NCBI RefSeq assembly: GCF_037076345.1
Contig: NZ_AP024702.1
Coordinates: 4,588,001-4,652,000, forward strand
Direction of reading: 5' to 3'
DNA from: Haloferula helveola
Lineage (GTDB): Bacteria > Verrucomicrobiota > Verrucomicrobiia > Verrucomicrobiales > Akkermansiaceae
Length of the DNA: 64,000 nucleotides
Shown: positions 15,561 through 39,598 of the stretch, piece after piece
Position numbering within the stretch: position 1 is the stretch's first letter
Layout: the number at the start of each line of letters is the position of its first letter
Position numbers and translations under genes: made by a program
The notes under the pieces: model-generated
What the model was told of the DNA's origin: nothing
What the model saw: the letters and a program-made list of their open reading frames with translations, nothing else
Database searches by the model: none

Positions 15561-16923
15561 GCAGATCAGCGAGTTTCGGGTTCGGCCGATCGGGTCGTTC
15601 GATGCGGATCTCGAAGTCCCCGGAGACAAGAGCATTTCCCACCGGTCGGCGATGATCGCCGGACTGGCGCGGGGCACCTCGACCATCACAGGGTTTCTTC
15701 CGAGCGAGGATTGCCTGAACACGCTCGCGGCGGTGCGTGCTTGCGGGGTTGGCTGCGATATCCTTGAGGAAATGCCCGGATTCGGCCCGACGGCGATGCG
15801 GATCCACGGCAAGGCGATGCAACTGGAGGCTCCTGCGGAGCCGATCGACTGCGGCAATTCCGGTACCGGCATGCGCCTTCTCGCCGGCTTGCTGGCAGGG
15901 CAATCATTCGAGTCGGAACTCTTCGGCGATGAGTCGCTGTCCGGCCGCCCGATGGGTCGCATCACCGACCCGCTCGGCCTGATGGGCGCCCGGATCGAGA
16001 CCCTTGGGGCGAAGCCGGGATGCGCTCCATTGAGAATTCACGCTTCGAAGCTTCAGCCGATCCGCTATGAACTCCCGATGGCCAGCGCGCAGGTCAAGAG
16101 TGCGGTGCTGCTGGCAGGTCTGTTCTGCGAAGGCGAGACGACGGTGGTCCAGCCGGCGGTGACCCGGGATCATACCGAGCGGATGTTCGAAGCCTTCGGG
16201 CTGAGCCTGTCGGAGGCCGACAACGTGATTTCGATCGAGGGCGGACAGGTTCCGGAAGGTCGGGAGTTCAGGGTCCCCGGAGACATCTCGAGCGCGGCAT
16301 TCTGGGTTGTCGCCGCGGCGGCCCGACCGGGTGCGCGTCTGGTGGTCCGCAATGTCGGATTGAATCCCACCCGCACCGCGGTGCTCGACGTTGTCGAGCG
16401 GATGGGTGCGACCGTCATCCGACGGCCGGTGGAGGCCGGAGGCGGGGAACCCTACGGAGATGTCGAGATTCACGGCGCGGAGCTTTCCGGAACGGATCTC
16501 GTGAGGGCTGAGATTCCCAACCTCATCGACGAGATTCCCGTCATCGCGGTAGCCGCCGCTCTGGCGAAGGGCAGGACACGGATCCGTGAAGCGAAGGAGC
16601 TCCGGGTCAAGGAGACCGACCGCGTGGCGACGACCGTGGAGAACCTGCGGGCCATGGGCGGTGTTGTGGAGGAATTCGAAGATGGAATGGAGGTCGAGGG
16701 TGGAGCGCCGCTGAAAGGCGCTGAGGTCCGGAGCTACGGCGACCACCGTATTGCGATGGCCTTCGCGATCGCCGGACTCTTTGCCGATGGGGAGACCCGG
16801 GTGCTCGACACCGCTTGTGTGAATACCTCGTACCCCGGATTCTCCCACCATCTCGACGCCGTTTTGCGCGGTTGCCGGGATGCGGCCGAATACGCCCTGC
16901 CAACGCGACCTACGAATTCATGA
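15547..16923 (+). CDS. aroA: 3-phosphoshikimate 1-carboxyvinyltransferase (EPSP synthase)
   Basis: Sixth step of the shikimate pathway: joins shikimate 3-phosphate and phosphoenolpyruvate. The 458-residue product has PGDKSISHRSAMIAG (25-39), GNSGTGMRL, QVKSAVLLAGL, and ELRVKETDR with EDGMEVEGG near the C-terminus. It ends with a canonical YGDHRIAMAFAI. The ATG at 15547 lies inside tyrA, and the product begins MSSNKQISEFRVRPI. The stop overlaps the cmk start (ATGA). The two overlaps imply translational coupling across tyrA-aroA-cmk. Confidence 0.97.
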   Translation: MSSNKQISEFRVRPIGSFDADLEVPGDKSISHRSAMIAGLARGTSTITGFLPSEDCLNTLAAVRACGVGCDILEEMPGFGPTAMRIHGKAMQLEAPAEPIDCGNSGTGMRLLAGLLAGQSFESELFGDESLSGRPMGRITDPLGLMGARIETLGAKPGCAPLRIHASKLQPIRYELPMASAQVKSAVLLAGLFCEGETTVVQPAVTRDHTERMFEAFGLSLSEADNVISIEGGQVPEGREFRVPGDISSAAFWVVAAAARPGARLVVRNVGLNPTRTAVLDVVERMGATVIRRPVEAGGGEPYGDVEIHGAELSGTDLVRAEIPNLIDEIPVIAVAAALAKGRTRIREAKELRVKETDRVATTVENLRAMGGVVEEFEDGMEVEGGAPLKGAEVRSYGDHRIAMAFAIAGLFADGETRVLDTACVNTSYPGFSHHLDAVLRGCRDAAEYALPTRPTNS

Positions 16924-19972: not shown

Positions 19973-21135
19973 GAGATGTGGAGAGGATAATGGCGCAGGG
20001 CTTGACCGGCGTCGAACTCCGGCGCGGGAGGTATCTCAAGGAATCCGTCAACGCCGGCAATCGAGATGAAGTCGCCGGAGTTCTTCGGGGGGAGCGGCGT
20101 GCCATCCGCACCAAGGGGCAGTAGCCATGTCAGTCGGGGGAGGGCCTCGATCGATGGCGGACAAGCTAGGTGACGCTCGCTCGGATCCCGTCCTTCGAGT
20201 TGGGCGAGTGAAGGAATCACATATCGGGCGAAGGTCGCGAGCACGGACACCGGGTTTCCAGGAAGAGCGAAGACCGCCGGTGGGCCCGACCAGAAGGCAA
20301 GCGGCTTGCCGGGTCGCTGCGCGACACCATGAAAAGCGGGCGGCCCGAGGATCTCCTCGAGCACCGGCCGGATGAAGTCCCGCTTTCCCTTTGAAATGCC
20401 ACCGCAGACCAGAATGAGATCGGCTTGGTCGATCGCCTGTTTGAGGGTCTTGCTGCAGGATGCCGGATCATCAGGAATGTGGGCGTGCATCACCGGATCG
20501 TTGCCGCCTCTGTTGAGCCAAGCTTCGAGCATGGCCCCGTTGGAGCGCCGGATCTGCCACGGTTCGGGGCGGGTGCTGATCGGAACCGCCTCATCACCAC
20601 TCGAGATCAGTGCCACTTTCGGGCGGATCCCGACATTGAGCTCGGTCAGTCCCACCGACGCCGCGATCGCGATTTCCGCGGGTCCGATGAGCCGGACGTC
20701 GTGTACCAGGGTGTCTCCCGCCTGAGCATCACTGGCGGCGCGATGAATGAACTGCCCGGCCGTTGCTGGCTCGATGACCGAGCGGTGATCGGAGCTGAGG
20801 TGTTCATAGGGGATGACGGTATCGCAGTCTTCGGGGACCATGGCCCCGGTCATGATCTCCCATGCTTCACCGGGCTTCAGAGGGCGGGGAGGCGGCTCGC
20901 CGGCTGCGTGAAGACCGGCGAGTTCAAGGGGTGTTGATAGGTCGGCGGCAGAGAGATCGAGTGCGATCCCGTCCATCATCGCCCGCGAGTAGGGCGGTAG
21001 ATCGCGGTCGGCTACAATCGGACCGTAGAGCGTTCTGCCCAGTGTCTCCGTAAGCGGGACGGTCTCGTGCCCGGGGACGCCCAACGACGTGCTGATCAGC
21101 GCATCCGCCTCGATAGGTGTGATCAAGGCATCCAT
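19969..21135 (-). CDS. moeA: molybdopterin molybdenumtransferase
   Basis: Inserts molybdate into adenylylated molybdopterin. The 388-residue protein has the MoeA N-terminal domain with RDLPPYSRAMMDGIAL, then domain II with GEAWEIMTGAMVPEDCDTV. The MoaB/Mog-like domain III carries VALISSGDEAV and VCGGISKGKRDF, and domain IV has GAGADGTPL-like sequence near the end. The ATG at 21135 (MDALITPIEADALI) is chosen; upstream in-frame codons run into the MOSC gene. It overlaps moaC by 4 bases. No mogA or moaB adenylyltransferase gene is present nearby. Confidence 0.95.
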   Translation of the reverse strand: MDALITPIEADALISTSLGVPGHETVPLTETLGRTLYGPIVADRDLPPYSRAMMDGIALDLSAADLSTPLELAGLHAAGEPPPRPLKPGEAWEIMTGAMVPEDCDTVIPYEHLSSDHRSVIEPATAGQFIHRAASDAQAGDTLVHDVRLIGPAEIAIAASVGLTELNVGIRPKVALISSGDEAVPISTRPEPWQIRRSNGAMLEAWLNRGGNDPVMHAHIPDDPASCSKTLKQAIDQADLILVCGGISKGKRDFIRPVLEEILGPPAFHGVAQRPGKPLAFWSGPPAVFALPGNPVSVLATFARYVIPSLAQLEGRDPSERHLACPPSIEALPRLTWLLPLGADGTPLPPKNSGDFISIAGVDGFLEIPPAPEFDAGQALRHYPLHIS

Positions 21136-21686: not shown

Positions 21687-23909
21687 TCAGCGGTGCCCGG
21701 CACTGGCCGGCCGGATCGTCACCGCGCAAGCCTTGTAATTCGGCTGCCGCGAGTGGGGATCGAAGGACGGATGGGTCAGCCGGTTGACTTCAGGATAGTG
21801 CATCGGGATGAAAATATGGCCGCGCTGCACCGTCGGCGCGAGGTATGCCGAGGCGGTCATGGTGCCTCGCCGCGAGCTCACGTTGACCGCTTGATTCGGC
21901 TCGATGCCGAACTCTGCCGCGTCCTCCGGGTGGATCTCCACATAGGCACCCGCTGGGTAGAGCTTGCGTAGGATGTCGGACTTTGAGGTGCGGGATTGGG
22001 TGTGCCACTGGCTGCTTGTCCCCCGGCCGGTCAGCATCAGGAACGGGTAGCCGGTGTCCGGCGGTTCCGGCAGGGCCGAAGGAGGTGAGAACAGGATCTT
22101 AGCCTTTCCACTATCGGTGTAGTAGTTTTCGTCCTCGAAGAGCCTTCTTTCCGGGGCGGGTTCGGTGTCCGCGTCACCCGTCTCCGTCCGCGCGGGGAAC
22201 GGCCACTGGATTCCACCCATGCGGTCGAGGTGTTCGTAGTCCGTGATACCGGTGATGTCGCAGGGTTGGTCCTCGGTCAGGTCCCGCAGGATGCGGAATG
22301 CGGACTCCGTGTCGGTCCATTCCGAGAACATGTCGGCGCATCCCCACGCATTCGCGATCAGGCGGAAAATCCGGAAGTCGGAGAGAGTCTGGCCGGGAGG
22401 CCAACGGACCGGCTTGATCGTGCCGATCCGGCGTTCGGAATTGATGAAACATCCGGACTTTTCGCCCCATCCGGCGGCCGGGAGGAAGAGGTCGGCCTCG
22501 GTGGCCGATTCGGTCGAGTGATACATGTCCTGCACCACCAGGAACTCCAACTTGTCGCGCAGCGCGGCGAGACGCCCGGAGTCGATCCATGAGTGGAACG
22601 GGTTGGTCGCGACGATCCAGAGGCCCTTGATTTCACCCGCCTCCGCCGCGGCGAGAATCCGGTCGTACTCCAGCGAGGTGTCCTTCGGAATGCGGTCCTC
22701 GCCGATCCCGAGTCGACGGGCGACTTTCTCGCGATGGGCTTGATTGGCGAAGTCGTGGCCACCGACCATCGACGTGGTGTTGGAGAACAGGCGCGATCCC
22801 ATCGCGTTGCATTGTCCCGTGATGGAGTTCGGTCCGGTTCCCGGTCTGCCGATGTTGCCGGTGATCAGGCAGAGATTGATGATCGCCTGTGCGGTCCGGA
22901 CGCCTTCATGGGACTGGTTGACGCCCATCGTCCACCACCACGAGACCCGCTTGCCCGGCTCGGAGACGGTGGCGGCGAGTTGTTCGATGGTCTCGGCGGC
23001 GATCCCGGTGACGTCCGAGACCGATTGCGGGGTGAAGGCCTTCACGAATTCGGCGAACTCCGCGTAGCCCTCGGTCCGCGCGACTGAGGCTTCATCGATT
23101 CGTCCGTCGCGCAGGATGCAGTGGGCGAGCGCGTAGTAGAGCGGCAGGTCGCCCTTCGGGCGAATCGGCAGGTGGAGGTTCGCGGCTTGTGCCGTTTCGG
23201 TTGAGCGGGGATCGATGACGATGATCTTCGGGTTTCGCCGGTTGCGCATGACCCGCTGCCACAGGATCGGATGCGCGATGCAAAGGTTGGCCCCGACGAG
23301 GACAATCACATCGCTTTCCTCGAAGTCGGCATAGGTCGCGGGCGGGGCGTCGAATCCGAACGACTGCTTGTAGGCCGTGACCGCCGTGGCCATGCACTGG
23401 CGGGTGTTGGCGTCGCCGTGGAGGAAGCCCATGCCGAATTTCCAGAGACAGCCGAGGAAAGCCATTTCCTCGAACGGGATCTGTCCGGTGGAGAGAAAGG
23501 CGGCCGCGTCCCGGCCGTGCTTATCTTGGATCGATCTGAAGCCATCGACGAATACTCCCAGTGCCGTTTCCCAATCCACCGGCTTGCGCTGGCCGGTGGC
23601 CGGGTCGCGCAGAAGCGGCACCGTGCCCCGGTCATCGGCGGTCAGCGGGTCGAGCGCCTGCCAGCCCTTGGGGCAGGCCATGCCGAGATTGACCGGATAG
23701 CTGGCCTGCGGGCTGAGGTTGATCGCGTTGCCATCGCGATCGAGGTGGAGCTTCAATTGGCAGCCGGTCGCGCAGTAGCCACAGATCGAGGTGGTGGTGG
23801 CTGCCGGCTTCAGTCGGGCGGGCACCTTTCCCAGACCGAACTCCCCGGGCTCCTGAACGAGATCCTCAGTCAGTGGTCCTTGGCGGGATTTGAGGAGTTC
23901 TTCGATCAT
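21687..23909 (-). CDS. nasA: assimilatory nitrate reductase catalytic subunit (Mo-bisMGD)
   Basis: Reduces nitrate to nitrite. The 740-residue protein belongs to the NasA/NapA branch of molybdopterin oxidoreductases. The [4Fe-4S] cysteines lie at 43, 46, 50 and 79 (CGYCATGC, later MACPKG). The Mo-ligand cysteine is at about 172 in [29 protein letters not shown] and the C-terminal dinucleotide-binding [10 protein letters not shown] block are also typical. There is no twin-arginine signal and no C-terminal [2Fe-2S] domain, so a cytoplasmic assimilatory enzyme is inferred. The ATG at 23909 has a GGAG 10 nt upstream; an ATG at 23930 is possible. Electron donor candidates are the two genes upstream. 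Confidence 0.93.
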
Positions 23910-24038
23910 CGGCGAGGCGCTCCAAATCATCCGCAGGATGCGTACAAAGCTGGAACAAAGTGGTAAGCTCGGGGCGCATCGGGGTCATTGGTGGCATGAG
24001 CACGAGTCATCCTGAGCGTCCGCAAGGCGCTGGTGCGC

Positions 24039-28012: not shown

Positions 28013-29779
28013 TCAGGCGGCGGCTTCTCCCGTCTTCGCCTCCGCGGTGAGGGACTGGATCTCTTCCGGACTCAGGCGACGGCTGAAGGCGGCGAACGAT
28101 TCGTTTTCCTCTCGATGCGCGAGGTAGGCGCAGAGAAGTTTCTCGACGAGCGAGTCGATCTCGGTTGCCGGAATCGACTTCCAAACCTCACGGGCGATCG
28201 CCTGTTGGTCGTCGACACCACCACCGAGAACGATGTTGTAGCCGTCGACCGATTCACCGTCGTCGGTCTTCACCTTGGTGCCCATCATGCCGATGTCGCC
28301 GATGTAGTGCTGGGCGCAAGAGTGCTGGCAGCCGGTGAGGTGGATGTTCACCGGTTGGTCGAGGATCAGCTTGCTGGCCAGATGGTCGCCCAGCGCGACC
28401 GCGCTGCCCTTGGTGTCGGCGGCCGCGTATTTGCAACCCCTGCTGCCGGTGCATGCGATCAGTCCGCCCTTGATGGTGTTGTTCTTGTGGCTCAGGCCCG
28501 TCGCCTGGATGGCAGTGAGTGCGGCCTGAAGCCTGTCGTCGGAAATACCGGGGATGATCAGGTTCTGCCAGACCGTCAGACGCAGTTCGCCGCGGCCGAA
28601 TTCGTCGGCGATGTCTGCCAGCGCAAGCATCTGTGAAACCGTCATGCGACCCACCGGTGTGAGGACGCCGACATAGTTCTTGCCGTCGGTCTGCGGGTGG
28701 ATGCCGAGGTAGCCCTGCTTGTCCTTCGGCTTCGGTGCATCGCACTTCTCGAGAGGGAAGTAGCGAAGCGGGAAGGTGAGTTTTTTCTCCGTCTCCTCAA
28801 GGGTCTTTTCGAAGCCCCAGTCGTCGACGAGATACTTGAGGCGGGCCTTCTTGCGATTGGTCCGGTCGCCGTTCTCGATGAAGACGCGGATCAGGGCTGC
28901 TGCGACGGGAATCGTCTCGGCCGGGGTGAGCAAGACACCGCAGTCCTTGGCGAACTGCTCATGACCGGTGATCCCGCAAAGTTGCATCCGGAAGTAAACG
29001 CCGGGCTCGACGCCTTGGTCATTTTCGCCGACACGGACCGCGTAAAAGCCGATGTCGTTGGTATCGGCGCAGACCGACACGCCACCTCCGGAGTCGTAAG
29101 AAATGTTGAACTTCCGCGGCAGGCCGTAGAGGTCCCGGTTCTTGAGGATGTAGTGGTGCATCGCCCTCGCGTAGGGCAGGACGTCGATCAGTTCGTCCGG
29201 ATCGAATCCGGTTGTCGGGGTTGCCGTGATGTTGCGCACGTTGTCGGCACCGGAGCCCTGCGATGTCAGTCCGAGGTCCGCGAGTTTCATCAGGACACTC
29301 GCGCAGTTCTTGGGTTCGATCTCACGGATCTGCAGGTTGGCCCGCGTCGTCAGGTCGGCGTGTCCAGGTCCCCAGTCCTGGGCCATTTCCGCAAGCCCGC
29401 GGAACTGGTAGGTGCTCAATGCTCCGCCGGCGATGCGACAGCGGAGCATGAAGCTGTCCTGGGCCGGAGCGACGTAAAACAGGCCGTGAAACTTGTAGCG
29501 GAAGACGTCGTCGGCTTCCGGGAATTGGTTCTCGGAGCCGTTGGCGAGAATCGTGTCGTAGCAATCGAGGCCGTTCTTCGCGTGTTTGATGCGCTCCTCG
29601 CGGCTGAGCTCGTCAACCGGGGTTCCGAAAACCGTCTCTTCCTCCTCGTGGGTGAAGCGGCCTTCAGCGTCCTGACCGAGATGCGGCATCAGGTCGCGGC
29701 CTTCCTTGAGGCCGGCGACGAAGGCCGTCAGATAAACTTCCTGCTCGGTTGTGAAGCCCGAATCGCTGATGAGACGCAT
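28013..29779 (-). CDS. nirA: sirohaem nitrite reductase (NirA/NirB-type, ferredoxin-like)
   Basis: Six-electron reduction of nitrite to ammonium. The 588-residue protein has two ferredoxin-like half domains and sirohaem/[4Fe-4S] cysteines at 443 and 449 (CTGSRGC) and 484 and 488 (CQHSC). These match the C-x5-C...C-x3-C signature of nitrite and sulfite reductases. An [17 protein letters not shown] start at 29779 is preferred to an upstream in-frame ATG. Because it sits in a nitrate cluster, nitrite is the likely substrate rather than sulfite. No NAD(P)H or FAD domain is present, so an external electron donor is needed. Confidence 0.92.
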
Positions 29780-29808: not shown

Positions 29809-29824
29809 AGCAGCTGGCATGCGA
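29809..29824 (-). promoter_or_regulatory. degenerate TGGCA-N8-GCT element upstream of nirA
   Basis: On the minus strand, TCGCA-N8-GCT ends about 30 nt before the nirA ATG. It matches the element found before nrtA, the porin gene and the nasS-like/lysR pair, with one mismatch in the GG core. Functional status is doubtful. Confidence 0.25.
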
Positions 29825-29936
29825 TCCGGCCGAAATCGGGCCCCGCGCCACCGGGAACGGGATCATTTCGAAGATGAGGGCGACTCATGGAACCGCCGGG
29901 ATCACCTGAAACCTTCGGTTTGCAGGCCTTGGAGCC

Positions 29937-30845
29937 CTACGCGACCGCCTGCGCGAGGTCGGCGGCCGACTCGAGCTTGCGACCGGTGAAGGTCAGGAGG
30001 CTCGACGAATCGTGGATCCGGGGCTCGGTCCGCAGGTGGGCGCGCTCGGTGAGGAACGACACCAGGTGGTCGAGGCAGCGGAAATAGAGCGGATCATGAA
30101 GCATCGAGGCCCGGTCACGCGGGCGATCGAAGTCGATGCTGAGGATCTCGCCGATCGTCGCCGCCGGGCCGTTGGTCATCATGACGACCCGGTCGCAAAG
30201 GAACACGACCTCGTCGACGTCGTGGGAAACGAGGACCGTGGTGATCTTCTCGCGGTTGAGGATGTCCAGCATCACGTCCTGGAGCTCCATCCGGGTCAGC
30301 GAATCGAGGCGGCCGAACGGCTCGTCGAGCAGGAGGACCTTCGGCTTGAGGGCAATCGCACGCGCGATGCCAACCCGTTGCTGCATGCCTCCCGAGAGTT
30401 CGCGCGGATACTTCTTCATCGAGTCCGCGAGGCCGACCGACGACAGGGCATACTCGACGATCTGCTGGCGTTCCTTCTTCGAGGCATGGGGATAGACGTT
30501 CTTCACGCCCAGCATCACGTTGCCGGCGGCGGTGAGCCACGGCATCAGGCAGGGGGATTGGAAAACCACGGCGCGGTCCGGTCCGGCACCTTCGATCTCG
30601 CGACCATCGACAACCACGCCGCCGTCGGAGATCGGGTTCAGGCCGGCGAGCATCGTGAGCACCGTCGACTTGCCGCAACCGGAGTGGCCGATCAGTCCGA
30701 CAAATTCGCCCTGCTCGATGTTCAGGTTGAAGTCGACGACGGCTTTGAAGTCCTCGCCGTAGGGATTCGGGTAGAGCTTCGCGAGGTTGAAGATTTCGAC
30801 GGATCGCATCGGTTTGGATCGGTTGGGAAATTGGAGCGGGTTCAT
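29937..30845 (-). CDS. nrtD: nitrate ABC transporter ATP-binding protein NrtD-type
   Basis: A 302-residue ATPase of the nitrate/sulfonate/taurine import family. It has Walker [13 protein letters not shown] signature [14 protein letters not shown], Walker B VLLLDEP with FGRLDSLTR, and a normal switch histidine in LVSHDVDEV. The C-terminal extension (about 230-302) carries [13 protein letters not shown]. The start ([13 protein letters not shown]) overlaps the stop of the preceding ATPase gene (ATGA). It probably pairs with the other ATPase as a heterodimer under one permease dimer, as in cyanobacterial NrtCD. Confidence 0.92.
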
Positions 30846-31723
30846 CCGGTGTTCTTCCACTTGAGGCCTCGGATTTTCGACGGCGCCTTGAAGTCGCGCG
30901 GGGCGATATCGGGCATCTCGATGATGTTGCTGCCACGCAGTTCGCGTGCCTCCTTGTTCAGACCGACAAGATAAGAGGTGATGTCGGCCTTGAGGCGCTT
31001 GTATTCAGGCAGTTCGGTGAGGGTTCTCCGGTCGCGCGGTCGCTCGAGCGTCACCGGGAATGCCTCGGCAAGCGTAGCCTTCGGGCCCATCGTGAGGGGC
31101 ACGATGCGGTCGGCCATGATGATCGCCTCATCGACATCGTTGGTAATCATCACCACCGTCTTCTTCTCCTGCTCCCAGATCTGGAGGATCTCGTCCTGCA
31201 GTACCGAGCGGGTCAGTGCGTCGAGGGCGGAAAGGGGTTCATCGAGCAGCAGGACCTCCGGCTGCACCGAAAGGGTGCGGGCGAGCGAAACCCGCTGGCG
31301 CATGCCGCCTGAGAGTTCGTGCGGGCGTTTGTCTCGGGCCGGGGTGAGGTGGACCATGTCGATGTAGCGCTCGACGTGTTCCCGGAGCTCGGCCTTCGAC
31401 TTCTTCGGGAACACCTGCTTCACCGCGAGGTGGATGTTTCCATAGACCGTCAGCCATGGGAGCAGCGAGTAGGACTGGAACATCACGCCGCGGCGCGGGC
31501 TCGGACGGGTAACCTTCTCGCCGGCCATCCGGACCTCGCCGCCGGTCGGCGGAAGGAGCCCGGAAAGCATATTGACCAAGGTCGACTTGCCCGAGCCCGA
31601 GAACCCGATGACCGCCACGAATTCGTTCTCCGCAACCGAGAGGTTGATGTCGGAGAGCACCTCGGTGCGATTGCCGGCGGGGCCGAAGGCGATCGATGCG
31701 TTGTTCAGTTCGAGGAATGACAT
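30842..31723 (-). CDS. nrtC: nitrate ABC transporter ATP-binding protein NrtC-type
   Basis: A 293-residue ATPase. Motifs are Walker [10 protein letters not shown] (40-48), signature [14 protein letters not shown], and Walker B VLLLDEP with LSALDALTR. The switch segment reads MITNDVDEA, with asparagine in place of the usual histidine, so this subunit may be catalytically weaker than its neighbour. Unlike cyanobacterial NrtC it has no fused substrate-binding domain. The ATG at 31723 starts [13 protein letters not shown], 26 bp after the nrtB stop. Nitrate as substrate is inferred from the island. Confidence 0.9.
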
Positions 31724-31749
31724 GGAACTGCGGGTGAGTTGCTGCGGGA

Positions 31750-33399
31750 TCAGGCGGTCGCGCTGCCATCGTCGAACGACACAAGGCGCTGGAGGAAGAT
31801 CATGATGCGATCGAGGAAGAAGCCGATGATCCCTACCACGAAGCATGCCAGGATGATGTTCGCGAACGACTGCGACGAACCGTTCTGGTATTCGTCCCAG
31901 ACGAACTTGCCCAGACCGTCGGAAGACGACAGCGCCTCGGCGGCAATCAGGACCATCCAGCCGACTCCGAGCGAGATCCGCAGGCCGGCGAAGACGAGCG
32001 GCAGCGAGGACGGGATGATGATCTTGAACAGACGCGACCAGAAACCGAGTCGCAGGACGTTGGCGACGTTGAGGTGATCCTTGTCGATCGACGACACGCC
32101 GAGCGCGGTGTTCACCAGCGCGGGCCAGAGGGCGCACATCGCCACCGTGCAGGCGGAGAAGATCATCGCCGGATTCGTCTGCAGGAAGGCGATCGGATTG
32201 ACGATCCAGCCGAACCACTTGTCGTTGTTCAGGGTGACGAAGAGCGGATGAGTCTCCGGATCGGGGAAAAAGGCTCCGATGATGATCTGGAAGATCAGCA
32301 ACCAGACGACGGGAGAAACGGGTCGGAAGATCGAGATGATCGGCGTGAGGCAGGCCATCACGATGCGGTTGAGTCCGCACATGATGCCGATCGGAATCGC
32401 CAGCGCGGCGGCGAGCAGGAAACCGACGAAGACGGTCGCGATCGAGCGCTTGGTCTGCCAGAAGATGGTGGCGGTCCGCGGATACGTCTGGGTCTTGGCG
32501 TCTTCGGCTCGTTCGGCGTTTTTGGCGATCGATTTCGCCTCCCGAACCACTTTCTTCGGGTCCTCCGCCGTAGCGAGCCCGGCGGTGCCTTCCTCGACCT
32601 TGGCGAGGTACTCGGCCTCCTTCACGTTGCGGTTCTCGTTGGTGAGGATGGCGATCCGCTTCTTGTAGTGCTGGACTTCGTCAGCGACGCGGTTGGCCGC
32701 CATCTGGGCCTCCTTCACCTCGCTTGGCGGGTTGGCGAGAACCTCGTCGATCTGGTCCTTGATCAGATCCTCCTTTTCCTTTTCGGCATCTTCGATAGCC
32801 TCGTTTTGGCGAAGAAGGGCCACCAGTTGCTCGGGTTGGGCCTCTTTGGCCACGACGGCTTCCGCGAGCTTCTCCATTTCGGCATCGCGGGTGTCTTCCG
32901 CCGCCTTGTGCACGGCCTTGAGTTCGTCGAGGTTGGCCTTCAGGGGAGAGAGTTTGCTTTCGGTCTCAAGCTTCGCTTCGGCGGCGACGGAAGCTGACTC
33001 TTTCGCAAGCCGCCCTGCTTCCTCTTCAAGTCTCGCAAGTTCGGCCTGGGTTTCGGCGAGGGTTTCCTCCCTCTCCGTGCCAGCGACAATGAAGTCATCG
33101 GCTTTCTCCTGCTGCCTTTCATCGAACCGGACATTGTCCTGATAGGCAGTCATCACCCGGGCCGGTGTCGGCACTTCGCCCGACTTCGTTTTGTGATTCG
33201 GTCCCATCACGGTCCAGACCGCGAGGCAGACGAGGACAAACACGATCGGCAGCAGCATGTACTTCGCGATATCCTGGACCTGCTTGCGCGGCTCTTCGCC
33301 GAAAAGCAGCCGGACGGGCGGGTCGAGGACCTTGAAGCCGCTGACGTCGATGCCCTTCAGCAGCCCGTACTTGATCTTGTCTTTGGTCGAATCAGCCAT
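31750..33399 (-). CDS. nrtB: nitrate ABC transporter permease NrtB-type with long coiled-coil insertion
   Basis: A 549-residue permease, about twice the usual length (about 270-300). The first membrane helix is at about 47-65. Between it and the second helix (about 320-340) lies an inserted charged region, about 95-300, rich in Glu, Lys and Ala and strongly predicted coiled coil (for example [20 protein letters not shown]). The rest is the ordinary binding-protein-dependent permease domain with the EAA-loop region [20 protein letters not shown] second, shorter insertion (about 370-405) has [19 protein letters not shown]. The coiled coil probably projects on one side of the membrane, possibly into the periplasm. 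Confidence 0.88.
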
Positions 33400-33518
33400 G
33401 GTGGTGAGTTGTTGGACGGATTCAGATAAGCCGTGTGCGTGCCAGCTTTGCTCGCCCGTGCAACGGCGGGGTTTATTAATGCGCCTGTTCCGGATGAGCG
33501 GCGCTCATGATGCGAGTG

Positions 33519-33547
33519 GACCCGGAGGCCGCTCGGGCCTCCGGGTC
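33519..33547 (-). promoter_or_regulatory. strong hairpin between nrtA and nrtB
   Basis: GACCCGGAGGCC and GGCCTCCGGGTC form a perfect 12-bp stem with a 5-nt loop in the 174-bp gap after nrtA. There is no U-run, so it more probably acts as an mRNA-end stabiliser or attenuator that keeps nrtA expression above nrtB than as a full terminator. Confidence 0.5.
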
Positions 33548-33573
33548 GTGTTCAAGGGGGTCGGGTGATGAGT

Positions 33574-34935
<1,362 letters not shown>

Positions 34936-34967
34936 GGTAATTGACGGTTCAGAGTCATCCGTCATTC

Positions 34968-34983
34968 AGCGGCTCATGTGCCA
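34968..34983 (-). promoter_or_regulatory. TGGCA-N8-GCT element upstream of nrtA
   Basis: On the minus strand TGGCA-CATGAGCC-GCT gives GG-N10-GC spacing like a sigma-54 -24/-12 promoter, though the -12 half is CCGCT rather than TTGCA. The GC lies 34 nt before the nrtA ATG. A perfect CACGGCCGTG palindrome (34982-34991) overlaps its upstream edge. Confidence 0.45.
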
Positions 34984-35054
34984 CGGCCGTGCGGCGCGGG
35001 GAAATGGCCGCCGCCACTTTCTCATTCCTGCCATGAAGGCGGATCATGCCGCGC

Positions 35055-36083
35055 TCAGGCGGGCAGAAGTGCCTTTTCCGAGGCCCGGAAAAGATCCTGA
35101 CGGTAGAGGCGGGTCAGGGAGCCGCCGGTAATGGTCTCGGGGACCAGGCCGACCGAGCGCATCCCGGAGAGGAACCACGATGCCTTGTCGGTGCTCGGGC
35201 AATTCAGGTCGGTGCCGTAGAAGATGTGGAAGTCGGACGCATCGAGATCGCCGCGGCCGCTGAGGAAGACCGGTCCGAGGCTGTTGTGCAGCGTCTTTTT
35301 CGAGCACCCGGTGTAGCTCGGCCGTGCGAGCAGGTCGACGAGTTCATCGCGGAAGTCCGGGTCCTGGCAAATGCGGCAGGCGTGGAGTAGGGCGGCGCCG
35401 AGCGCGATTGCCTCGTCGCGTCGCTCACCGACAAAGGTGCCGTCAATCAGCAGCACTTTTTCCGGATGGCCAGTGGCAAGCTCGGAAGAGGTTGCCGGAC
35501 ACCAGGCATTGCCGGCGAGGATCGCCTCGGAGTTCCACGGTTCACCGACGCAGTAGCCGTCGATATGGCCGGCCGCGAGGTTCTGGGGCATCAGCGGCGG
35601 CGGCAGGAACACCAGCTCGAGATCGCGGCCCGGTTCGAGTCCGTGCCGACGCAGCCATGCGTGGAGCAGGATGTGGTGGGACGAGAACCGATGGGCGGCG
35701 GCAAAAGTGATCGGGCGGGTCTTCTTCCACCGGTGCTGGACGAATCCGGCCAGGCCCTCGCCATTGCGGATGATGTCCTGCGGAAGCTCGTTTGAGAGCG
35801 TGATCGCGTTGCCGTGCGCGCTCAGGATCAGCGGCACGGAGACTTCGCGGCGAAGCTTGCTGAGACCGAGTGCCAGGTAGAAGGCCAGCCCGGCGATCGA
35901 CTGGGCGGCGTCGAGTTCTCCGTAAAAGAGCATGTCACGGACGGTTGCCCACCCCGGTTGGCGCGAGAGCCGGACGTTGAGGCCGTATTTCTCGAAGATT
36001 CCAAGCTCATGAGCGACCGCGACTGGTGCGCAGTCATTGAGAGGCACGAAGCCGAGACGGATGGGCGAGCGGGAATCCACCAT
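35055..36083 (-). CDS. nasS: NasS-like cytoplasmic nitrate-binding protein
   Basis: A 342-residue NrtA/CmpA-fold protein with no signal peptide. It begins [21 protein letters not shown] and has CVGEPWN and [10 protein letters not shown] like the transport protein, but is about 110 residues shorter. In Proteobacteria such signal-less NrtA homologues (NasS) sense nitrate and nitrite and control the antiterminator NasT. No NasT (ANTAR) gene is adjacent here. Instead the gene is divergent from a LysR regulator across a 93-bp region. Sensing rather than transport is inferred from the missing signal peptide. Confidence 0.78.
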
Positions 36084-36099
36084 GGGAGAGGACGCGTCT

Positions 36100-36115
36100 A
36101 GCTTAAAGAATGCCA
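36100..36115 (-). promoter_or_regulatory. TGGCA-N8-GCT element upstream of nasS-like gene
   Basis: On the minus strand, TGGCA-TTCTTTAA-GCT lies with its GC 18 nt before the ATG. It forms one half of a dyad with the plus-strand element at 36128-36143, so it may be promoter, operator or both. Confidence 0.45.
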
Positions 36116-36133
36116 ACCCTCCGCCTTTGGCAT
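36110..36133. promoter_or_regulatory. inverted repeat (candidate LysR operator)
   Basis: ATGCCAA (36110-36116) and TTGGCAT (36127-36133) are perfect 7-bp arms with a 10-bp spacer in the middle of the divergent nasS-lysR region. The symmetry extends outward to AGC (36100-36102) and GCT (36141-36143), each 7 bp from its arm. A further outer pair, GGACGCGT (36090-36097) and ACGCGTCC (36150-36157), is nearly concentric. This is the expected place for a LysR-type autoregulatory site. Confidence 0.55.
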
Positions 36134-36143
36134 AAACCATGCT
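36128..36143 (+). promoter_or_regulatory. TGGCA-N8-GCT element upstream of lysR gene
   Basis: TGGCA-TAAACCAT-GCT on the plus strand, with its GC 34 nt before the LysR ATG. It has the same spacing as the elements before nrtA and the porin gene and is the mirror image of the nasS-side element. Confidence 0.45.
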
Positions 36144-36176
36144 GGACCCACGCGTCCCTGTGGATGAGTCGAGTTC

Positions 36177-37115
36177 ATGAGTGAGCTGCTTCCGGATCTT
36201 CGTCAGCTGAGGGCCTTTGTGGCAGTCGCCGACGAAGGCAGCTTCACCATGGCTGCGAAAAAGCTGTTTCTGACCCAGTCGGCGATCAGTCACTCGATGA
36301 AGGCGCTGGAGGACAGCATCGGCTGCAAGCTGCTGTCGCGGCTCGGAAAGAAGACCGTTCTGACCGGCGAGGGGGCGGTGCTGCTGAAGCGCTGCAGGAC
36401 CATACTGCAGGAATTGGAGCAGGCCGGACGCGAGCTCGACGGGATGAAGCGGTGGGGCCAGGCGCGGATCCGGATCGGTGCGCCGCATTCATTGTGTCAG
36501 TTTTTGCTGCCGACCGTTCTCCGGGAGTTCCGCGATTGTTTTCCGCGCTGCGAGCCGTCGATCGAGGCGGGTGACACCGCCGGCCTGATCGACCGTCTGG
36601 CCGACCACGAACTCGACGTGGTGCTCGGGCTGAAACCCAAGGAAACGGACGATTACGAGTCCCGCACGATCTTCCGTGACGAAATGGTGTTCGTGCTGCC
36701 ACCGGTCCACCCGTGGCTTGAGACCGGTGAGCCGACACCGTCGGACCTCGAAACGGTCCAGTTCATCATCTACGCCAAGGCCACCGAGACGCATCGTCTT
36801 GTGGAGAGGCACTTCGAGAGAATGGGGGTACGCCCCCGGGCTCCTCTGGTCCTGGGTGACATGGAGGCGATCAAGGAGATGTCGAAGATCGGCATGGGAG
36901 TGGGTGTGGTGGCCCCATGGGTCGCACGACGCGAGCTTCAGGAGGGGACGCTGGTCGCAATGCCGATGGGAGCGGAGTCGCTCGAGAGGGAGTGGGCGGT
37001 CTTCTGGAACAAGGGACGCCCGATGAGTCTCATCGAAGAAACCTTCGCCGGAATCGCGGCGATGGTTGGCGAAGCGCTCGGCGACGCGCCGATCCAATAT
37101 CAGCCGCCGAGGTAG
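36177..37115 (+). CDS. LysR-family transcriptional regulator (nitrate island)
   Basis: A 312-residue LysR-type regulator. The N-terminal winged helix-turn-helix is at about 8-67 (RQLRAFVAVADEGSFTMAAK, then TQSAISHSMKALED). The C-terminal effector domain runs from about 95, with RIGAPHSLCQFLLPTVLREF. It is divergent from the nasS-like gene and surrounded by nitrate genes, so control of the island is inferred. The effector is unknown. Its 3' end overlaps the convergent moaA by 16 bp. Confidence 0.93.
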   Translation: MSELLPDLRQLRAFVAVADEGSFTMAAKKLFLTQSAISHSMKALEDSIGCKLLSRLGKKTVLTGEGAVLLKRCRTILQELEQAGRELDGMKRWGQARIRIGAPHSLCQFLLPTVLREFRDCFPRCEPSIEAGDTAGLIDRLADHELDVVLGLKPKETDDYESRTIFRDEMVFVLPPVHPWLETGEPTPSDLETVQFIIYAKATETHRLVERHFERMGVRPRAPLVLGDMEAIKEMSKIGMGVGVVAPWVARRELQEGTLVAMPMGAESLEREWAVFWNKGRPMSLIEETFAGIAAMVGEALGDAPIQYQPPR

Positions 37116-38116
37116 CTCATCTCGGCCTTCGCCTGTGTGGTTTCGCCACGCAGTTCCGAGTAGCGGTCAGTGCGCTCGCTCCAGATTCCGGCGAATGCCG
37201 CTGCAAGCGTCGAGTCCGGTGCGCCACCCCGAAGTAGGGGCCTGAGATCATGCCCGGTCGGATTGAAGAGGCAGGTGAACGCGTGCCCGTCGGCGGAAAG
37301 CCGGAGTCTGCTACAGCTTTGGCAGAAGGGAGCGGTGACGGATGCGATCACGCCGATCTCGGCGTCGCTGTCGGCGTGGCGCCAACGTGTCGCGGTTTCT
37401 CCCGTGTGATTGGGTGGAAGGGCAACCAGCGGATGGCGCGAGCGGATGCGATCGAGAATCTCGGCGGCGGGGACCACGTGTTCCGTGGACCAACCGTTGG
37501 TCTCACCGACATCCATGAACTCGATGAAACGGAGAGTGACGCCGCTGTCCTTCGCCCAGTCGACGAGCGGAAGGATCTCGGATTCGTTCACATCCTTCTG
37601 CACCACACAGTTCACTTTGACGGGGAGTCCGAAGTTCGCTGCCGTGGAGATGCCCGCGAGCACCCGGTCCACTTTCGCGCCGACGCCGTTCATTCGCGAG
37701 AATACAGTGGGATCGAGCGCGTCGAGGCTGACCGTCACACGGCTGAGTCCCGCCAGCGCCAAGGCCTCGGCATGATGGGCCAACAGAACGCCATTGGTGG
37801 TCAGTGCGATGTCATCGATCCCGTCGACCGTCGCCAGCATCGCCACGAGGTCGGCGAGTCCGCGACGTAGCAACGGTTCGCCGCCGGTCAGGCGGATCTT
37901 GCGAACGCCCAGCTTGGTGGCGATCCGTGAAATCCGGTGGATTTCCTCAAAGCTGAGGATCTCCTCTCGAGGCAGGAATCGGTAACCCGGTCCGAACACT
38001 TCGGCGGGCATGCAGTAGCGGCAGCGGAAGTTGCACCGGTCGGTGACGGAGATCCGCAGATCACGAAGTGGCCGACCTCGTAGATCGCGGGTCGGCTGTG
38101 GCGGGGGATCGGTCAC
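37100..38116 (-). CDS. moaA: GTP 3',8-cyclase
   Basis: Radical SAM enzyme for the first step of molybdopterin synthesis. The 338-residue protein has the SAM [4Fe-4S] motif CNFRCRYC (Cys 28, 32 and 35), RLTGGEPLLR, and SLDALDPTVFSRMN. A second [4Fe-4S] cluster is formed by CQSCSRLRLSADG with a later FTC cysteine. It ends YLGG, the GG tail needed for activity. It lies between the porin and lysR genes, separated from the other Moco genes by the nitrate genes. Confidence 0.97.
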   Translation of the reverse strand: MTDPPPQPTRDLRGRPLRDLRISVTDRCNFRCRYCMPAEVFGPGYRFLPREEILSFEEIHRISRIATKLGVRKIRLTGGEPLLRRGLADLVAMLATVDGIDDIALTTNGVLLAHHAEALALAGLSRVTVSLDALDPTVFSRMNGVGAKVDRVLAGISTAANFGLPVKVNCVVQKDVNESEILPLVDWAKDSGVTLRFIEFMDVGETNGWSTEHVVPAAEILDRIRSRHPLVALPPNHTGETATRWRHADSDAEIGVIASVTAPFCQSCSRLRLSADGHAFTCLFNPTGHDLRPLLRGGAPDSTLAAAFAGIWSERTDRYSELRGETTQAKAEMSYLGG

Positions 38117-38153
38117 GGTCGGAAGATGGAACCGGTGGGGCCGGCGTGCCAGC

Positions 38154-38194
38154 GGGAAAAGAAACGGGTCCGGGAGATGCGCCCCCGGACCCGT
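38154..38194 (-). terminator. Rho-independent terminator of porin gene
   Basis: On the minus strand, ACGGGTCCGGG and CCCGGACCCGT form a perfect 11-bp stem (38164-38174 with 38184-38194), followed by TTTCTTTTCCC. It begins 22 bp after the porin stop codon. Confidence 0.85.
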
Positions 38195-38215
38195 CGAGTG
38201 GCAACCGATGCTGGA

Positions 38216-39478
38216 TTAGAAGGTGTAGTTCAGCTCGATGCTGAAGCGGGTGGTGTCGAAGGGAGCCGGATTGATCACGAGCGGATTGCCGGTCGGGCCT
38301 TCGGAGTCGAAGTAGGCGAACTTGGCGATCGCGAGGAAGTTCTCGCTGAACTTCTTCGCCAGCACCGCGTCGTATTCCCAGCCGTAGTCGAAGCCGGAAC
38401 CGTTGTCACCGAAGACGTGGACGGTCTGGTTGAAGTTCAAGCCCCAGAACGGCAGCGGGGTGGCGTGGGTGAGGTAGAGGTCGCTGATGCCGGGGTTCCG
38501 GGTCAGGCCGATCCGGGTGCCGATGAACGCGTCGGCGAAACCGTTGAAGGCGTGCACCGTGGCGAGCGGCGTGACGAAGTCGGCATCGAGGTATTCGTAA
38601 CCGAGCGTGAACGTGTGGGTGCCTGCCTTGGCCGATGCCTTGAAGTGTGCGTACCAAGCGTCGTCCGGCTTGAAGATCGGCGAGCTGCTGGTGTCGGTCT
38701 GGTAGGCGATTTCGCCATAGAGCGTGACCGGGCCGATCGGGGTCTCACCGCTGATGCCGTAGGTGTTGTTGCTGACGTAGCCGGCGTTGGCCGCCGTCTC
38801 GTCGAAGTCCATCAGGTAGGCGTAGCCGGTGATCGTGGAATCCCCGAAGCCCGAGTAGGAGGCGTTGAAGAGGTGGATGTCGCCGGCGAAGTTGCGCAGG
38901 GGGCCCATCGCGTCGGAGCCGAAGATTCGGTTGGCGCGGTTGGCATACGCGTAGAACAGCGTGAGGTCTTCGATCGACGTGTTCGTGATACTAAACGCAT
39001 CGTAGGTTTGCTCGTTCTGGCGCCATCCGACGTTGCCGATGAAGGCGGCGTTATCGAGGATAATGCGCTGGCGGCCGGCCTTGAACACGGTGTCGAAACC
39101 CTTGTACTGGATGTAGGCCTGGTTGAGCTCGTTGTTCTCGGGGTCGAGGATCGGCGTGCGGCTCGGGTCGTGCGGTGAGGTCGCGGCGCCCGGACCCGAA
39201 TCGTAGGAATCGTCGATGGCCTGGAGGAATTCCCCTTCGACCAAGGCGCTGAATCCGTACCAATCGCGGGTCACCAGTCCGACACGTTCCCGGACCGTGA
39301 AGGCGGTCGAGGAGCGCAGGGCGGGCGAGTCGATCGATCCGTACTCGTAGCGGGCGCGGATGTTGAGGGTCGGCTTGATCCATGGCTCGGCCGGCGGCGG
39401 TTCGACGGCGGGCTCAGGGGTCATTCCGGCGTGGGCCGTGGAGACGGCGACAACTGCGAGGAGGCGGTGTGCTTTCAT
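38216..39478 (-). CDS. outer-membrane beta-barrel porin (alginate-export-like)
   Basis: A 420-residue outer-membrane protein. The signal peptide is at residues 1 to about 17 (MKAHRLLAVVAVSTAHAG), then a proline-rich linker and repeated amphipathic strands (for example LNIRARYEYGSI, DTVFKAGRQRIILDN, HTFTLGYEYLDAD). It ends with an aromatic C-terminal residue (LNYTF), the BAM-recognition signature. The DNELNQAYIQYKG and GRQRI parts recall the alginate-export porin family. It has its own terminator and an upstream TGGCA-N8-GCT element shared with nrtA, so nitrate passage through the outer membrane is a plausible role but is not shown by sequence. Confidence 0.85.
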   Translation of the reverse strand: MKAHRLLAVVAVSTAHAGMTPEPAVEPPPAEPWIKPTLNIRARYEYGSIDSPALRSSTAFTVRERVGLVTRDWYGFSALVEGEFLQAIDDSYDSGPGAATSPHDPSRTPILDPENNELNQAYIQYKGFDTVFKAGRQRIILDNAAFIGNVGWRQNEQTYDAFSITNTSIEDLTLFYAYANRANRIFGSDAMGPLRNFAGDIHLFNASYSGFGDSTITGYAYLMDFDETAANAGYVSNNTYGISGETPIGPVTLYGEIAYQTDTSSSPIFKPDDAWYAHFKASAKAGTHTFTLGYEYLDADFVTPLATVHAFNGFADAFIGTRIGLTRNPGISDLYLTHATPLPFWGLNFNQTVHVFGDNGSGFDYGWEYDAVLAKKFSENFLAIAKFAYFDSEGPTGNPLVINPAPFDTTRFSIELNYTF

Positions 39479-39500
39479 GGCGAGTTACGCCAGAAAGGGA

Positions 39501-39516
39501 AGCGGGTCGCCTGCCA
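39501..39516 (-). promoter_or_regulatory. TGGCA-N8-GCT element upstream of porin gene
   Basis: On the minus strand TGGCA-GGCGACCC-GCT has the GC 24 nt before the porin ATG. It shares TGGCA-N6-CCGCT with the nrtA element. Confidence 0.45.
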
Positions 39517-39598
39517 GACATGCCCGACCGTCAAATTCGGTAGGCGAAACTTTACGCAAGCCGCCGATGAGTTCGGCTCATGGGTGGGGCCGCCGGAT

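Follow-up and report, generated by a model that had tools for sequence, protein, structure and literature searches.

The window analyzed here is a 64,000-nucleotide (nt) stretch of DNA from Haloferula helveola (Akkermansiaceae), corresponding to G000:C1:4588001-4652000 of a 5.68-Mb genome held in a single contig (G000:C1), and it carries an island of nitrate genes in which a short element, TGGCA-N8-GCT, recurs ahead of gene starts. Read from right to left, the island comprises a porin gene, moaA, lysR (divergent), a nasS-like gene, nrtA and nrtB, and continues with two nitrate ABC ATPases, nirA, an Fe-S/DmsC-like protein, a multihaem cytochrome-like protein and nasA; open reading frames (ORFs) resembling molybdenum-cofactor genes, as judged by eye only, follow below 21.2 kb. 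Sequence comparison across relatives indicates a real conserved architecture, in which putative σ54 (RpoN) promoter elements are accompanied by a phased, predicted operator of the LysR type.

The nitrate island and its recurring element

A preliminary description of this DNA had reported four exact copies of TGGCA-N8-GCT, ahead of nrtA, the nasS-like gene, lysR and the porin gene, together with a one-mismatch copy ahead of nirA. All of them were found again at the same positions, and an additional exact copy, absent from that description, lies 31 nt before the ATG of nrtB. The predicted elements are as follows:

29809..29824, minus strand: -24/-12-like element of nirA, TCGCATGCCAGCTGCT; GG with its first G altered, TGCT of the -12 half kept
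33429..33444, minus strand: predicted -24/-12 element of nrtB, TGGCACGCACACGGCT; exact motif
34968..34983, minus strand: predicted -24/-12 element of nrtA, TGGCACATGAGCCGCT; exact motif
36100..36115, minus strand: predicted -24/-12 element of the nasS-like gene, TGGCATTCTTTAAGCT; exact motif
36128..36143, plus strand: predicted -24/-12 element of lysR, TGGCATAAACCATGCT; exact motif, 12 bp from the nasS element and back to back with it
39501..39516, minus strand: predicted -24/-12 element of the porin gene, TGGCAGGCGACCCGCT; exact motif

Measured between the C of GC and the start codon, the distances given earlier for nrtA (34 nt), the nasS-like gene (18 nt) and the porin gene (24 nt) are correct, and that for lysR is 35 nt rather than 34. 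For the nasS-like gene, a transcription start about 12 nt after the GC would leave a leader of about 6 nt, making the transcript nearly leaderless.

The window holds eight exact copies of the motif, compared with 1.53 ± 1.06 in shuffled sequences, and none of 100 shuffles reached eight. A scan of the whole genome returned 163 exact copies, or 1.84 per 64 kb, a rate that shows the earlier expectation of one per 64 kb to be slightly low and at which the Poisson probability of eight copies in the window is 6e-4. Within 29809-39516 (9.7 kb) there are six exact copies, five of them ahead of genes, where 0.28 would be expected (P = 5e-7); the clustering at island start codons does, as had been claimed, exceed chance. 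A chance origin of the cluster is ruled out by the shuffles, the genome-wide rate and the island counts. The sixth island copy (32445) lies inside nrtB on the same strand; it is one of three window copies without a convincing gene start, the others being at 20544, likewise inside a same-strand ORF, and at 16923, antisense to two plus-strand ORFs. Of the 163 genome copies, the first 30 were located relative to ORFs, and 25 of these fall inside an ORF of at least 300 codons, an upper estimate, as ORFs on either strand of 3-kb GC-rich loci were counted. The signal of TGGCA-N8-GCT lies in its clustering, not in its genome-wide frequency.

The genes of the island were assigned as follows:

36177..37115, plus strand: LysR-type regulator (lysR), domains HTH_1 and LysR_substrate
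35055..36083, minus strand: NasS-like NMT1_2 protein; N-terminus without a signal peptide, by eye
33574..34935, minus strand: nrtA-like nitrate-binding protein, NMT1_2
31750..33399, minus strand: nrtB-like permease; NCBIfam best match ntrB, below the cut-off
30842..31723, minus strand: nitrate ABC ATPase, ntrCD subfamily
29940..30860, minus strand: nitrate ABC ATPase, ntrCD subfamily
28013..29779, minus strand: nirA, assimilatory nitrite reductase, above the NirA-family cut-off
21690..23930, minus strand: nasA-like molybdopterin nitrate reductase; best match NasA, below the cut-off
38216..39478, minus strand: outer-membrane porin-like protein; weak, below-cut-off matches to Alginate_exp and opr_proin_2

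In the nrtB-like permease (549 aa), the PF00528 match spans residues 334-532, and a long, charged, coiled-coil-like stretch can be seen by eye ahead of the permease domain.

The element in relatives and its likeness to σ54 promoters

An nrtA gene was found in 53 of the 195 family genomes, and 40 of the surrounding stretches were taken for comparison; the upstream counts given here (exact motif, boxes and weakening) include the window itself, and the tally of distances for 46 boxes does not. The exact motif occurs within 125 nt upstream of lysR in 21 of 28 regions (75%), of the porin gene in 17 of 23 (74%), of nrtA in 19 of 41 (46%), of nrtB in 6 of 26 (23%) and of nirA in 1 of 14. Random windows of the same loci contain it in 403 of 40,000 cases (1.0%), which makes it approximately 20-75 times commoner ahead of nrtA, nrtB, lysR and the porin gene. 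The preliminary description had named an equal frequency upstream of unrelated genes as evidence that would count against the motif; in 94 upstream regions of control genes it was found in none (0/35 and 0/35 for the two ABC ATPases, 0/5 for moaA and 0/19 for nrfCD).

The GG-N10-GC spacing is kept before the nrtA, nrtB, lysR and porin orthologues of relatives, and 12 of the 14 nirA sites, including that of the window, take the form xG/TGC, in which the spacing is kept and the first G is altered. Several AT-rich relatives have ATTGCT or TTTGCT as the -12 half. Site choice in relatives scored GG, GC and the flanks, and the resulting base frequencies lean toward the consensus; nasS promoters were located relative to lysR.

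In the available portion of the source, the σ54 consensus derived from Desulfovibrio is given as tGGcacg/tTGCt (PMC4641369). The elements studied here have the fixed GG-N10-GC spacing, with flanks that are incomplete in this genome's boxed promoters (those with the upstream box described below) and with the first G missing in nirA. A stricter pattern, TGGCAYG-N5-TGCW, has only four matches in the genome, one before glnK (P-II), one before amtB and two (L118 and L120) without an assigned gene; the check on other nitrogen genes suggested earlier was positive for these two. Among relatives, 30 of 35 amtB loci were examined, and 28 of the 30 show GG-N10-GC with a near-consensus core, 8 of them as the full TGGCAYG-N4-TTGCT. 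The look-up of rpoN proposed earlier was positive: the gene is present in this genome (8.2e-56) and in 182 of the 195 family genomes. Its absence was dropped as a discriminating test, since it is nearly universal in the family.

Because the spacing is kept in relatives, TTGCT appears in AT-rich relatives and at some promoters of amtB, and the element also precedes glnK and amtB, GG-N10-GC is very probably a σ54 -24/-12 promoter element. Two readings of TGGCA-N8-GCT had originally been offered, RpoN promoters or binding sites of the local LysR; the former fits the motif, and the latter was rejected for it, as the dyad typical of LysR-type transcriptional regulators (LTTRs) forms a separate sequence, ATGA-N7-TCAT. 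The poor -12 half flagged in the same description is real, and it is a regular feature of boxed promoters in GC-rich relatives. Upstream of lysR in one locus (L172), both back-to-back elements are identical, TGGCACATGACATGCT on each strand, forming an inverted repeat.

A dyad box at helical steps from the element

The window contains six exact ATGA-N7-TCAT boxes where 0.9 would be expected, and five of them lie 56-58 bp upstream of elements, measured from the box centre to the T of the element. The boxes, which have no assigned strand, are located as follows:

29874..29888: box of nirA, 57 bp
33494..33508: box of nrtB, 57 bp
35033..35047: box of nrtA, 57 bp
36164..36178: box that overlaps the start codon of lysR; it precedes the nasS element by 56 bp and follows the lysR element by 43 bp
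39567..39581: box of the porin gene, 58 bp
23996..24010: the window's remaining exact box, before nasA
23932..23947, minus strand: degenerate -24/-12-like sequence TTGTACGCATCCTGCG (TTGTACG-N5-TGCG), 56 bp from the nasA box, found by eye and passed over by the strict rule

The nasA arrangement appears similar by eye in L093 and L095, and a strict version exists in L077 at 14 bp; no box precedes nasA in 9 of the 13 nasA regions scanned.

Allowing at most one mismatch, the counts of promoters with the box, among those with a scored site, are 25 of 34 for nrtA (1.9 expected from shuffles), 15 of 16 for nrtB (1.0), 14 of 14 for nirA (0.5) and 21 of 22 for the porin gene (0.8). Only 4 of 27 lysR elements have such a box upstream (0.8 expected). 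A composite of box and element separated by a gap of 26-56 bp has five matches in the 5.68-Mb genome, four of them in the island, and its reversed control has none; no box was found within 75 nt upstream of any of the first 30 genome copies of TGGCA-N8-GCT.

The distance between box and element is not fixed across relatives; it falls mostly on steps of approximately 10.7 bp, namely 14, 24, 36, 46 and 57 bp. In the discovery set outside the window, 23 of 46 exact boxes are 56-58 bp from an element and 20 more are at 13-15, 23-26, 34-37 or 45-48 bp, so that 43 of 46 fall inside five distance windows, which were drawn after looking at the data. The periodicity of the 23 boxes outside 54-59 bp was reached by none of 20,000 simulations. 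Upstream of amtB, where boxes were examined after the distance steps had been seen, 8 of 30 regions have an exact box, seven of them 14-15 bp from the element and the eighth at 149 bp; according to our tally, the seven close boxes are all in genomes with a LysR relative.

The arrangement was followed further in loci of named genomes, for which 80 of 423 LysR relatives were kept and 78 scanned. Among the 78 loci, the lysR-side element is present in 72, the nasS-side element in 56, both in 51 and an exact box in 52. The box lies 53-58 bp from the nasS element in 43 of 47 cases, and in 47 of the 78 loci its centre falls 6-18 nt ahead of the start of lysR, with 20 over the start codon, as in the window. 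For a replication, 13 of the 80 loci were dropped for sampled 60-mers common to the discovery set, and the palindromic box was scanned on both strands of the remaining 67; these contain 94 exact boxes, which form 67 box-element pairs. The distance is 54-58 bp in 58 of these pairs, and the reversed element gives two. The pairing of box and element extends across Akkermansiaceae and is found in part in three Spartobacteria loci and one Opitutales locus.

Several features connect the box with the LysR-type regulator encoded beside it. It is a 4-N7-4 dyad with T-N11-A, which is the LTTR form, and it occurs both at target genes and beside the divergent lysR; the operators of BenM and CatM are reported with the same T-N11-A form, as ATAC-N7-GTAT, in the part of PMC6628147 available. 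A second TGA half-site follows 22 bp downstream in 11 of the 27 boxes at 54-59 bp, including all eight of nirA. A LysR relative (E <= 1e-55) is present in 50 of the 53 nrtA genomes, compared with 89 of 195 genomes overall. Because of this dyad form, the box at the lysR start and the co-occurrence of LysR with nrtA, ATGA-N7-TCAT is likely to be the operator of the neighboring LysR-type regulator, and RpoN and LysR are probably both involved, each at its own site.

The boxed promoters are also distinguished by their cores. We termed a promoter weakened when it lacks either the T preceding GC or the first G of GG. Where the upstream G+C content is at least 50%, boxed promoters are weakened in 24 of 24 cases and lysR promoters are intact in 21 of 21; lysR promoters of AT-rich upstream regions are intact as well (6/6). 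The same contrast is seen across 44 distinct divergent pairs: 41 have a weakened nasS side, and 43 an intact lysR side. Since the rules for choosing sites favor intact cores, this contrast should not be a product of those rules, and weakened halves are what would be expected if LysR offsets a poor fit of the polymerase.

Regulatory interpretation and known systems

On balance, we favor, with reservations, an interpretation in which the GG-N10-GC elements before nrtA, nrtB, the nasS-like gene, lysR and the porin gene, together with the nirA variant, would be RpoN promoters of a nitrate regulon, the boxes 56-58 bp upstream of five of them would be LysR operators, and LysR would aid the σ54 polymerase. 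From the same face of the helix, bound LysR may contact and steady the polymerase at promoters with a weakened -24 or -12 half, and an NtrC-like ATPase would still have to open the DNA. Expression of the nitrate genes would then need both nitrogen shortage, conveyed by RpoN and the NtrC-like ATPase, and a nitrate signal, conveyed by LysR and perhaps by way of NasS. Through the box at the start codon of lysR, the regulator could switch on nasS and restrain its own gene.

The enhancer-binding ATPase that σ54 promoters are stated to require without exception (PMC4641369, in the portion available) could be supplied by any of three NtrC-like response-regulator activators encoded in the genome, AAA+ proteins of which two have a Fis helix-turn-helix (HTH). 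A 457-aa protein (L102:1072-2442; G000:C1:3817827-3819197) is NtrC-like, with receiver and AAA+ domains; no Pfam HTH was detected in any of the 20 members of this type that were scanned, although the tail retains a likeness to a Fis helix pair. Its relatives occur in 53 of 60 family genomes, and among the three activators it is the strongest candidate for a partner that can do without a fixed enhancer. Its sole tie to these promoters is a joint absence of activator and amtB element in one genus (g5): the two amtB regions without the element are those of G004 and G017, both from this genus and both without an L102-type activator. No LysR or L102 relative above thresholds and no amtB element was found in the G004 and G017 regions examined, and those of G017, an nrtA genome, yielded no composite elements. 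The genus may represent a natural loss of the system in one lineage only. RpoN matches in these two genomes are weaker (approximately 1e-36, compared with 1e-56).

As for the nitrate signal, NasS normally pairs with the ANTAR antiterminator NasT, according to the part of PMC5424462 available. Searches for ANTAR proteins gave none in this genome and matches in only 4 of the 195 family genomes, three of them above the cut-off; the NasS-like protein often adjoins LysR in the family despite this scarcity. Because ANTAR proteins are nearly absent and nasS and lysR are divergent, it is plausible that a NasS-LysR pair carries the nitrate signal. A more ambitious version of the favored interpretation, to which we attach a good deal of doubt, is that LysR took over the DNA-bound half of σ54 activation: standing at whole-turn distances, it would bring the polymerase to weakened promoters, the HTH-less 457-aa ATPase would open them from solution, and NasS, without NasT, would signal nitrate to LysR.

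A number of observations weigh against the assisted-promoter interpretation. TGGCA-N8-GCT is not enriched genome-wide (163 copies, compared with 503 for the pattern read backwards), and neither is TGGCAYG-N5-TGCW (4, compared with 15 for the reversed control). The exact motif is missing from 22 of 41 nrtA, 20 of 26 nrtB and 13 of 14 nirA regions, and in several relatives nrtA or nrtB lacks a convincing element; in the window itself, the T before GC is missing in four of six elements and the first G is missing in nirA. Boxed promoters of AT-rich upstream regions are weakened in only 11 of 23 cases, and weakening also extends to nrtA promoters that lack an exact box (16/20), many of them having a one-mismatch box. 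The box motif and the distance windows were both chosen after looking, and the counts are not independent, as the sequences are related by descent. Off-step distances of 53, 72 and 83 bp occur in the discovery set; outside 53-60 bp the replication provides nine pairs, five in the predicted windows (P = 0.003), and its four off-step pairs are one at 31 bp and three at 43 bp. The LysR relatives of some nrtA genomes are only 37-42% identical. No LysR protein activating a σ54 promoter was found in the literature searched. Finally, the box centre near -83 would also suit an NtrC-type enhancer.

This last point leads to an alternative in which the elements are σ54 promoters and the box is the enhancer of an NtrC-family activator, LysR being uninvolved. 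The usual range of such enhancers takes in a centre near -83, the genome encodes the three NtrC-like activators described above, two of them with a Fis HTH, and σ54 promoters need a protein of this kind (PMC4641369). An NtrC enhancer should be common to other σ54 nitrogen promoters; amtB has an exact box in only 8 of 30 regions, although 28 have the element. An exact box centred just ahead of lysR, 6-18 nt from its start, in 47 of the 78 named loci also speaks for LysR. Relatives of two of the three activators (L102 and L103 as queries) were not found in 120 partly overlapping island loci covering 1.74 Mb, whereas a LysR relative accompanies nrtA in 50 of 53 genomes. We consider this alternative unlikely.

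Somewhat less probable still is the idea that LysR acts at these σ54 promoters solely as a repressor or anti-activator, which, bound in phase, would block an NtrC-like activator or bend it away until nitrate is present. The same geometry would serve such a role, and in the case of lysR itself the box follows the element, a position at which binding would be expected to repress; the boxed promoters of GC-rich relatives are weakened, however, and unboxed lysR promoters intact, a pattern that suits help over hindrance. Least probable is that TGGCA-N8-GCT is the site of another transcription factor, with LysR acting at ordinary σ70 promoters: the -12 halves of this genome are indeed poor (CCGCT, CGGCT, AAGCT) and the stricter consensus is not enriched, but the GG-N10-GC spacing, TTGCT in several AT-rich relatives, the full consensus at 8 of 30 amtB promoters, the element at glnK and amtB, and the near universality of rpoN in the family all argue for σ54.

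RpoN promoters normally answer to another class of activator, and a pairing with LysR, as the favored interpretation has it, would be unusual; if true, it would represent a new way of making σ54 promoters signal-specific. The natural series of spacings, from 14 to 57 bp, could serve to test contact between LysR and the polymerase, and the analysis provides this group with a reconstructed nitrate/ammonium regulon. A search for earlier work on such a regulon in this group, covering mostly openly accessible literature, found nothing pertinent.

Among known systems, the cyanobacterial NtcB offers a likeness, being a LysR-type nitrate regulator that aids the global nitrogen activator NtcA; the difference is that NtcA is CRP-like and works with a σ70-type polymerase. 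One study cited in work on Borreliella reportedly names an enhancer-independent activator in its title. At the σ54-dependent rpoS promoter of Borreliella, a non-AAA regulator, BosR, was long proposed to act beside the NtrC-like activator Rrp2, as is suggested here for LysR; BosR has been reassigned to RNA binding, and hence is no longer a clear precedent, and unlike in that case the box described here is conserved in phase with the promoter (PMC11109971, in the part available). Both a LysR-type regulator and nitrogen depletion affect the porin BCAL3473 of Burkholderia cenocepacia, which has -24/-12-like sequences, but their spacer is too long for a normal σ54 promoter, and the available portion of that report does not describe a phased LysR site (PMC10117139). 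With BenM and CatM, as far as the source was available (PMC6628147), the box shares the 4-N7-4 dyad, the second TGA half-site (11 of 27 boxes), the divergent gene and a likely autoregulation; those regulators act at σ70 promoters, whereas here the promoter is σ54-like and the distance slides by helical turns.

A further parallel is the NasTS system of Paracoccus denitrificans, in which, in the portion of PMC5424462 available, the nas genes are under an NtrC protein, of a family usually dependent on σ54, and under nitrate sensing by NasS. Both systems would combine general nitrogen control with a nitrate-specific layer that includes NasS (PMC5424462). In Paracoccus, NasS works with the ANTAR protein NasT, whereas no ANTAR protein was found in the present genome, and its nasS is divergent from a lysR with a predicted operator at the promoters.

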